Source: Paratrimastix pyriformis
Lineage: Eukaryota > Preaxostyla > Paratrimastigidae
Length of the DNA: 64,000 nt
Assembly: GCA_027972325.1 (NCBI GenBank)
Contig: JAPMOS010000038.1
Location: forward strand, 186,001 to 250,000
Direction: 5' to 3'
The position numbers and the translations under genes were made by a program. This document shows positions 16,206 to 61,631 of the stretch, in pieces; position 1 is the first letter of the stretch; every line of letters begins with the position of its first letter. The notes beneath the pieces are model-generated. The model had not been told where the DNA came from, made no database searches, and worked only from the letters and a program-made list of their open reading frames with translations.

Positions 16206-19200
16206 ATGGCACATCAATTGGAAAGCGGATGGGATTCCCGCTTTCAGGTCTCCGATACTCTCCCCGAATATGATGCATTAAAAGACCCGCACTGTCGGGT
16301 GGCACAAACCTCGTCTTTCCGGAAATTTTGGGCGAAGGTTTGTTTTGTTTTTTTGTACAATCATGTCATGGCGACCAACTTCTTGTTCGTCCCTTGTGAC
16401 ACGCCTCCCACCAGCAACGTCGGGGACTGTCCCCTCTCAAAAGACCCTCCTCCGTTCCCCCGGGTGAGGCTGCCTCCGGGACCAGTGTTCGCTCGATCAC
16501 GGCTACCCCCACTGGTTCGAGCGGCTATCCCGCTCGGACTGCGACCACTTATGGGGCACGGTACTCCACATCCTCCTCCGCTGCTGCCTCCGTCTGTCTT
16601 ACCCTCGCCCACACACCACAGCGGGGTTGTATGGCTATGACCCCCCAATTTTGTTTCTCCGGGGGTATATCCACCATCTCATCCTGCTGTCTTGTCTCCC
16701 CCGGCCCGTCCGGCAGCGACCCACGTTTATGCCGCCGCCCGGGGCGGACCGAGATGCCTGGGTTGAGTCGGCCTTCGCCCAGGCCCGATCCAAGTCCGCA
16801 GCAGCAGCAGCAAGGGGCATGAGTATGGGAAGTGGGCGATTGGGGGGACGGGTTTCGGGAGAGGATCATCTGAACTCCTTGCTGAAGCTCCTCTCGATCT
16901 GTTTCTGTCTGTCTGTTCCCTGCCCCGCCCCGTCTGGCAGGCTGGAGAATCTCTGGGAGGAGCTCTGCATCCCCCAGCGGGACCGGGACTACTTCGCCAA
17001 GTACTTCTTCGAGCCGACAAGCGTCAACCTGGCCCACATCAACACCCAGGTCGGTATGGGTGTGGCCGGGGGGGAGGGTGGCGTGGATGAGTGGAGGAGG
17101 ATCAGCAGCAGCAGCAGCAGCAGCAGCATGATCATATCGTCATCATCATCCAGATCATCATGCAGTCATTTTCATCATCAGTCCCATGTTTCAAGCATCA
17201 TCATCATCATCAGCATCAGCATCATCCAATCATCCAAGCATCATCATCATCCAATCATCATCATCGTCAGCATCAGCATCATCAACAACAACAACATCAT
17301 CATCATCAAGCATCAACAACCAGGTCGGTATGGGTCGCCGCGGGGAGGGCGTGTGGGTGGTGGTGGTGGTGGTGGTGCTGAGAAATGCTGGTGACGGGCG
17401 GGGGATCGTTGAGGCAAAACTCACCACCGCTCACCCCCCCCCCCCCCCCCCCCCCACACACACACACACACACCACCACCACCACCACCACCCCCTCCCC
17501 TCCCCCCAGACGACCCGCCTGCTGGAGCACCGCGAGCTGACCCTGCAGGCCCTGGCGGCCATCGACCAGCGGGAGCGGCGCCTGGGGACGCTGGTCAAGC
17601 TGGCCGAGGAGATCCCAGACGCCCTCGCCACGTCCGTCGATGAATGGATGATGATCTGGATGATGATCTGGATGATGATGATGATGATGATGATGATGGA
17701 TGATGATCGGATGATGGCGAGACATCTTGCACATGACGGTTCCGAGTGTTGACGGCGCGTCGTCACCGCCCACCCACAGGCCGCCCAGCAACCCCACCCG
17801 GGATCGAATCCGGCAAGAGACCCTCGAATTGCTCGCTGCCCTGCGCGCCCACACCCTGTCGGTGGTCGAGGCCATCCAGGAATGGCGCCAGACCCTGTCC
17901 CGCCCGCAGGCTTTCATGTGGAACGGTCCGCGTCCTGGCACTACTGCGTGCGCACCCGGTTGTGTGTTGCAGACATCACCACCCTTGTGCCCGAGGTCGG
18001 GTTTTGATATGTGGAACGGTCCGCGTCCTGGCACTACTGCGTGCGCACCTGTGGTTGTTGAGACAGACATCTCTCCCACCCTTGGGGCCCGAGATCTGTA
18101 GAACGGTCCACGTCCTGGCACTACGACGTGTGCTGTTGCAGATCATCGTCATCATCATCACCCTTGGGCCCTTTCATATGTGGAACACTCCCCGGTGGTG
18201 CGTGATCTCTACGTGTGAGTCTGTATCGCTGGTTTTTTGACGCAAATCGCATCTTTGGCATTGCGTGTGTGTCTGCTGCGCGAATCTGCGTGTGCGCACG
18301 TGGGCCGGGTTTTGATGGAGATGGGCCTTCTGCATGGCGGGCGGGTGGGCGGGTGGGCGGCGCGGGCGGGCGGCTGGTGTTTTCAGCACTACCGTCATGG
18401 TCCAACGCATCGTTGATTCACCCCCACCAAGACGATGACACTCATTTTTGGATCCCATTCCCATTCCCATCTTCTTCGCCCCTCCTTCAGGCCTGAACTA
18501 CCTGCTGAAGCTGCAGCACGATTTGGACTTTCTCTCGCCTGCCTCGCTGGTTGCTCTGCTCTCGGGCGCCGCGGCGGCCCACGAGGACGCCGAGGCCGAC
18601 GGGCGCCAGCCGTCCAACGCGGGTCCGTCTCGGCGGTTTGAATTTGTGGGACGTGGGGGGCATGAGTGTCATCCCATATCGTTTTGTTTTAAGGTCTGGG
18701 TATGAATGTCATTTTTTTGGTTTAAGTGTGATAGTGATTGTACTCATCATTTCTCCCCCTCGCTCCCCCAAACGTCGCCTCCACCCAACCCAGAGGCCGT
18801 TCTGCTCCTGCCGCGGCTTTCAGTCCGCGAGCAGCGGGCCATGAAAGAGGCCGAGGACGTGGTGGCCCGTGAGGAGATGCTTCAACGGGCCGTCGAACAG
18901 GAGTCTGTGTGTGGAACAGTTGACATCGCCCCTGGGGGAAGAACGATATCCGGAACATTCAAATCGTTCGGTCTCCGTCACAATGTAGCCCTACAGGACA
19001 TGGGGAATGATAATCACACATCATCACAAAAAGAGCCTTGCAAAAAATTCGATGCATGCAATGCCCAATCTAAAGAGAAGGAGAGGGTCCCCTCGCTGCT
19101 TTCTGCTCTTTTGTTTTTTTTATACCCCCACTCATATCTCGACTCACCTCCGATTCTCGTTCCAGGGCCGGCCGTTTGGAGCAAGGCGGCTTCTACGTTC

Positions 19201-61631: not shown

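Follow-up and report, generated by a model that had tools for sequence, protein, structure and literature searches.

Intronic copies of exon edges and a divergent donor consensus in Paratrimastix pyriformis

Introns of Paratrimastix pyriformis contain duplicated exon edges, many of them with a spare splice site: a 310-kb sample holds 42 of these copies in 36 of the 455 predicted introns of at least 60 nt. The explanation that we consider highly likely is that short duplications, tandem or nearly so, arise often in non-coding DNA and that selection keeps the events that still splice correctly; neither exon edges nor satellites look like special targets in the 310 kb. On this account spare splice sites inside introns need no special machinery, as local duplication and selection would suffice, given the controls described below, and the genome becomes one in which introns apparently grow through duplications that span their junctions, and in which it can be tested whether the spare sites are used.

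Copies of exon edges in the window and in the larger sample

The window is the 64,000-nt stretch C310:186001-250000, and positions in it are numbered from its first letter. The 310-kb sample comprises the first 260 kb of the contig that carries the window (C310), together with five 10-kb pieces of other contigs, taken from a genome of 56.06 Mb in 495 contigs. Gene models came from an unsupervised self-training finder that was started with flat splice-site profiles and that merges neighbouring genes; in the 310 kb it settled at 587 exons and 534 introns, and 389 of the 534 donors were found again when site profiles were omitted. The predicted gene models are supported because protein domains emerge after splicing. 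The EXS domain reaches 210.7 bits in the spliced model vs 20.1 and 25.4 bits in two unspliced frames, the spliced exons of CWF19 yield CwfJ_C_1 (positions 3-121 of 122) and part of CwfJ_C_2 (4-55 of 96), and two further spliced genes yield PCI (5-83 of 84) and B-box (3-35 of 42) domains.

Copies were sought by self-comparison with short-period repeats masked, for which single letters shuffled within 150-nt blocks served as the control, and by a second method in which each intron was aligned to its own exon edges from the gene models. Self-comparison returned 520 matches against 1 in the shuffled control for the 260 kb of C310, and 47 against 0 for the five 10-kb pieces, while none of the 122 edge queries gave a match when compared with a random place, so chance is excluded as the source of the copies. 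All 14 examples named in the initial annotation overlap self-alignment pairs found by one or both methods, and its statement that donor and acceptor edges are both copied is borne out by 21 donor-side and 21 acceptor-side copies in the 310 kb. Its figure of at least 15 introns was a slight overcount: the window holds 16 copies in 13 introns, 14 of them found by per-intron alignment and 2 that the finder treated as extra exons within introns of the same set, and the 14 named examples correspond to 11 of the 13. A donor-side bias, which the window alone might suggest (9 donor vs 5 acceptor copies), disappears in the 310 kb.

On the forward strand, the gene called the IQ gene in the initial annotation has the edge and donor of exon 16941-17049 (17037-17061; gene model, self-comparison and per-intron alignment) copied in the intron at 17311-17335, with 96% identity, a lag of 274 nt and satellite in between. 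The edge and donor of exon 17780-17925 (17916-17956; gene model and self-comparison) recur in the intron at 18009-18049 (100%, lag 93), with further copies at 18097-18124 and, more weakly, at 18172-18194, the last being the fourth copy placed near 18177 in the initial annotation.

The other window cases lie on the reverse strand. In the B-box gene, the donor side of an exon (29734-29766; gene model and both comparisons) is copied in the intron at 29651-29683 (lag 83), where the remainder of the intron part is also similar (p = 0.013), and the acceptor edge of exon 31140-31213 (31192-31233; gene model and per-intron alignment) is copied at 31293-31333 as part of a tandem unit of about 100 nt that spans the acceptor (p = 0.003). 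CWF19, identified by its CwfJ domains, has four copied edges. Its exon start on the acceptor side at 40060-40077 (self-comparison) recurs in the intron at 40145-40162 (lag 85; intron remainder dissimilar, p = 0.74). The exon end and donor at 41500-41545 (self-comparison) recur at 41408-41453 (98%, lag 92), where the finder made an extra in-frame exon of 30 nt, 41414-41443, that is a candidate for alternative splicing. The end and donor of exon 42343-42586 (42337-42379; self-comparison, per-intron alignment and domains) recur in the intron at 41750-41792 (98%, lag 587, satellite in between), and those at 43914-43951 (self-comparison and per-intron alignment) recur in the intron at 43811-43848 (100%, lag 103; intron remainder dissimilar, p = 0.93). 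Two cases are absent from the list in the initial annotation: a 22-nt tandem array across donor 46213 (46154-46235) and a copy, at 46525-46578, of the donor edge of exon 46643-46919 (lag 109, p = 0.010).

The remaining cases lie in the EXS exporter gene. The acceptor edge of exon 53691-53815 (53786-53822; gene model and self-comparison) has an intronic copy at 53873-53909 (95%, lag 87) in which the AG is lost, and a 61-nt unit in 3.6 copies extends across donor 54221 (54032-54251; previously described as a four-copy array, 54024-54270). An exon start on the acceptor side (55059-55103; gene model and per-intron alignment) is copied in the intron at 55471-55516 (lag 412, satellite in between), a donor edge (56960-56982; self-comparison) at 56689-56711 (100%, lag 271, satellite in between), and an acceptor edge (58183-58210; self-comparison) at 58575-58602 (93%, lag 392). 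Finally, the end and donor of exon 58868-59017 (58862-58947; gene model and self-comparison) recur at 58738-58823 (92%, lag 124), a candidate alternative exon that the finder models as an extra in-frame exon. A tRNA-Thr(AGT) gene, 56075-56147, also lies within an intron of this EXS-family exporter on the same strand.

False duplication produced by the assembly is a reading that the 495 contigs and the repeat-rich window could favour, but 27 of the 42 copies have lags of 60-120 nt, which ordinary reads exceed in length, substitutions and indels separate many copies from their sources, and the exons remain open across long conserved proteins; we regard such an artefact as exceedingly unlikely. 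The remaining source-to-copy distances are shorter still (3 copies), 147 and 173 nt (2 copies), or 214-626 nt (10 copies).

In the 310 kb, the self-matches cluster into 323 pairs: 180 intron-intron, 54 exon-exon, 35 intergenic, 3 intergenic-intron, and 51 that pair a copy within or overlapping an exon or its edge with a partner elsewhere. Most of the exon-exon pairs (46 of 54) come from one repeat-rich gene at 20.4-23.4 kb, whose long coding exon 20408-23365 has many repeat units that are 86-98% alike. Edge copies become commoner with intron length, from 0 of 101 introns of 60-120 nt to 20% of the 69 introns of 500-1500 nt.

Placement relative to exon edges and satellites

The initial annotation proposed a tandem duplication or template switch spanning the splice junction. 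Support for duplication across junctions comes from both sides of introns: the intron remainder of the unit is similar in 16 of the 30 testable cases (p < 0.05 vs dinucleotide shuffles; 12 of the 42 copies fall outside the test), which fits tandem duplication, since that predicts repetition of the whole unit. Whole-unit tandems are visible by eye at 31214-31460, at donor 54221 and at donor 46213 in the window, and at C310:44940-45086 (three units) and C310:92665-92985 elsewhere on the contig. At C310:182823-182990, the inner sequence consists of the start of exon 2 followed by the end of exon 1, and apparently reads as one duplicated short intron with both exon ends. The other 14 testable cases, including the 100%-identical copy 43811-43848, have an intron remainder without significant similarity, and resemble copied inserts more than plain tandems, unless they are tandems whose intron part has been replaced.

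What the data do not support is a process aimed at the edges themselves. A junction-specific process that copies exon ends with their splice sites, such as targeted template switching or an RNA-templated event, would account for several features of the copies. Many copied blocks stop a few bases into the intron, and blocks that are 75-90% exon and end shortly past the junction outnumber expectation (11 observed vs 3.9 expected); the profile of copy coverage, which is highest deep in introns and about 5% where exons end, has a dip immediately inside the intron; and six introns carry copies of both edges. One of those six (68050-68174) is a single tandem, however, and many copied blocks include intron bases beyond the junction, so spliced mRNA was not the template for those. 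Several further cases are whole-unit tandems, as described above. The median coverage of the unit by gapped alignment is also lower for the 30 edge events than for 29 events confined to introns, with lags of 40-130 nt (0.58 vs 0.82), and remains so for pairs of at least 97% identity (0.56 vs 0.72). Slower divergence of the exon-derived part, one copy of which is constrained, would account qualitatively for the lower coverage, the excess of mostly exonic blocks and the dip just past the junction, and some edge cases may involve copied inserts.

The rates of local copying weigh against a junction-specific process. With equal-sized queries and targets, and with edge and intron classes drawn from introns of at least 400 nt, a copy within 200 nt was found for 8 of 122 donor edges and 6 of 122 acceptor edges (14 of 244 together), as against 54 of 488 intron-interior, 185 of 1537 intergenic and 1 of 1359 exon-interior queries, in draws that overlap and are not independent; the exon-interior rate leaves out the repeat-protein region near 19.4-23.8 kb. 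In the 310 kb, then, edges have a lower rate than either intron interiors or intergenic DNA. Edge queries had more unmasked letters (about 87 vs about 64 for intron interior), which should favour edges, yet their rate is the lower one. It lies below the intron-interior rate and above the exon-interior one, the order predicted if duplication is uniform and selection then filters the events.

Relocation gave a similar answer. When each of 104 events in or beside introns of at least 100 nt was moved randomly within its own intron plus 80 nt of exon, 36.9 ± 4.2 events touched an exon (range 25-48 over 200 rounds), and the observed 44 of 104, 1.7 SD above the mean, fits random placement. Edge-specific copying was rejected on these two comparisons, and a junction-specific process appears decidedly improbable to us; local duplication in the 310 kb occurs irrespective of annotation, apart from selection.

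The copies had also been described as lying next to or between simple repeats, and introns with an edge copy do contain a satellite more often than those without (56% vs 37%). They are also longer (median 413 vs 230 nt), and with intron length in the model satellite presence has no effect (permutation p = 0.51; 455 introns). Nor do copies lie closer to satellites than positions drawn at random from the same intron (p = 0.59), and 22 of the 42 occur where the intron has no satellite run of 30 nt, so the proposed tie to satellites as a needed partner is not upheld. A satellite-driven mechanism, which the wording of the initial annotation suggests and in which a satellite would slip into the exon at a common short word and so duplicate the edge, would draw on the window copies that lie between ATC/GAT satellites and on words shared at the junctions, apparent by eye in several window cases. 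However, only 2 of the 42 copies abut satellite at their exon-interior end, and priming of the junctions by satellites was set aside; with the results on intron length and proximity, we judge a satellite origin very improbable. The growth of short repeats between the copies, the other part of the proposal in the initial annotation, fares better: from exon edge to copy, the raw density of satellite is 0.50 vs 0.34 elsewhere in the same introns (26 copies), and 0.67 vs 0.45 for the 7 long-gap copies. This mildly supports later repeat growth there, although it is also what a satellite-driven mechanism would show.

Under our preferred explanation, duplication would be short-range, tandem or near-tandem, sometimes repeated over several rounds, and would fall anywhere, with replication slippage or template switching as the presumed molecular cause. 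Duplications inside exons would be eliminated by selection. A duplication that crosses a junction could persist if the outermost donor and acceptor, presumably the sites in use, are still joined, leaving the mRNA unchanged and the intron one unit longer. The inner copy would then drift free of coding constraint, and short repeats may expand between the copies afterwards.

State of the copies and comparison with known systems

The intronic copies could instead be functional alternative exons or splice sites kept by selection. GT or AG is present in 29 of the 42 copies (15 donors and 14 acceptors; the edge can be placed in 38 of the 42), and the mean scores of the copied sites, 4.42 for donors and 4.73 for acceptors, are near those of the real sites (5.50 and 4.90) and above those of random GT and AG (0.98 and 0.61). 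Where the alignment crosses the edge, GT is intact in 15 of 15 and AG in 14 of 15 copies, but requiring such an alignment favours intact sites. In the exon-derived parts, pooled over copies, mismatches number 24/422, 13/420 and 29/413 at the three codon positions, and 13 of 16 indels shift the frame, a combination expected if the exon is under constraint while its copy evolves freely, and not if both were coding. The pooled data give no support for coding constraint on the intronic copies, and we consider their retention for function improbable. The segment 58744-58815 stands apart in being open in frame over 72 nt, flanked by AG and GTCCGT, with 5 of its 6 changed codons synonymous; among more than 40 copies, a single case of this kind may be due to chance.

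Tandem exon duplication, as in mutually exclusive exons, also places duplicated exon sequence beside its parent. The copies described here resemble it in that respect and differ in usually comprising a few tens of nucleotides of one exon end, with frame-shifting indels common; complete in-frame exon copies were not found among these partial ends, the one 72-nt candidate being 58744-58815. Introners, near-identical introns dispersed over many genes, were likewise rejected, as the copies are local by the test of 122 edge queries against random places and one exon-edge query had a single match in the genome.

Intron gain by tandem duplication of an exon segment containing AGGT is attributed to Hellsten et al. 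and to Gao and Lynch as cited in PMC4974935. The likeness is that a local tandem duplication alters exon-intron structure while the mRNA is kept; the difference is that the process outlined there (PMC4974935) duplicates an exonic segment and creates a new intron, whereas here an existing intron lengthens. The units here cross an existing donor or acceptor, and an exonic segment supplying both new splice sites was not seen. In the potato RdRp gene, as described in the same article, a tandem duplication of intron-exon structure, for which relatives serve as proof, resembles the present cases in what is duplicated and differs in that a new intron and an inserted piece of exon were gained; an 83-bp tandem duplication inside the first intron of that gene left the gene structure unaltered (PMC4974935). 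Near intron pairs in Drosophila, ascribed in PMC2891723 to tandem duplication or intron sliding, share with our cases duplications that make competing splice sites, but involve, in that account, exonic proto-splice sites and novel intron positions, while here the position is apparently unchanged and the copy stays in the intron. Among the matches listed in our literature searches, no title concerned duplicated exon edges inside introns as such.

Donor consensus, U1 snRNA and intronic snoRNA candidates

The predicted donors follow G|GTCYGY and not GTRAGT: among the 534 donors of the 310 kb, 425 have C at +3 and 350 read GTCNG, as against 7 with GTRA, and GTCCGT and GTCTGT were still the top donors of the finder without site profiles. 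A U1 search of the whole genome, in which 41 candidates were scored, gave eight loci (L027-L034, on contigs C212, C231, C349, C441, C482, C495, C388 and C24) at 50.8-60.2 bits, below the Rfam cut-off of 69.5. All eight genes start with ATACAGACCTTG, that is, in short form, with ATACAGACC rather than AUACUUACC. The canonical 5' end of U1 is AUACUUACCUG. No canonical version of this U1 body was found, and a pattern with the two changed positions left open, which divergent bodies would escape, finds the same eight loci. The sequence ACAGACCU pairs fully with AG|GUCUGU, and U6 carries ACAGAGA, the usual U6 box.

The 5' splice-site code has very probably been rewritten, with donor G|GTCYGY and U1 5' end ATACAGACC, and the two changes apparently co-evolved. 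The match to U1 supports the splice sites used in this analysis. An apparently genome-wide change of the 5' splice-site consensus with a matching U1 5' end bears on the evolution of the splicing code, and this by-product is probably more interesting than the duplications. For comparison, one survey of yeasts gives U1 ACUUACC as invariant wherever U1 was found (PMC10581693), and a variant U1 with a run of C is described for one diplonemid (PMC12621601); no report of the present donor and U1 change was among the literature matches listed.

A broader reading would join the rewritten code (G|GTCYGY with U1 ATACAGACC) to junction-spanning duplications that act as a ratchet of intron growth and to the use of some strong spares, 58744-58815 first, in alternative or shifted splicing. 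If this were true, every round would lengthen the intron and leave a strong spare site; taken as a whole, we find it rather unlikely.

A gene that we take, from its protein, to be glutaminyl-tRNA-synthetase-like has introns that resemble one another in a different way. Introns 10186-10446, 10863-11100 and 11740-11986 form one family with near-identical internal cores, and introns 11208-11464 and 12248-12512 share a second core, another copy of which lies at C310:146069-146132. Introners were discarded for this gene, as the common part is the internal core and not the whole intron. Both families of cores carry TGATGA and CTGA boxes, and although an Rfam search of the cores gave no match, we presume from the boxes that they are duplicated, intron-encoded C/D snoRNA candidates. 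Beside this gene lie a protease-like reading frame recognized by eye (8695-9078; no match in Pfam) and a DDE_1 transposase-like exon (6821-7258; Pfam), both of which the finder fused with it.
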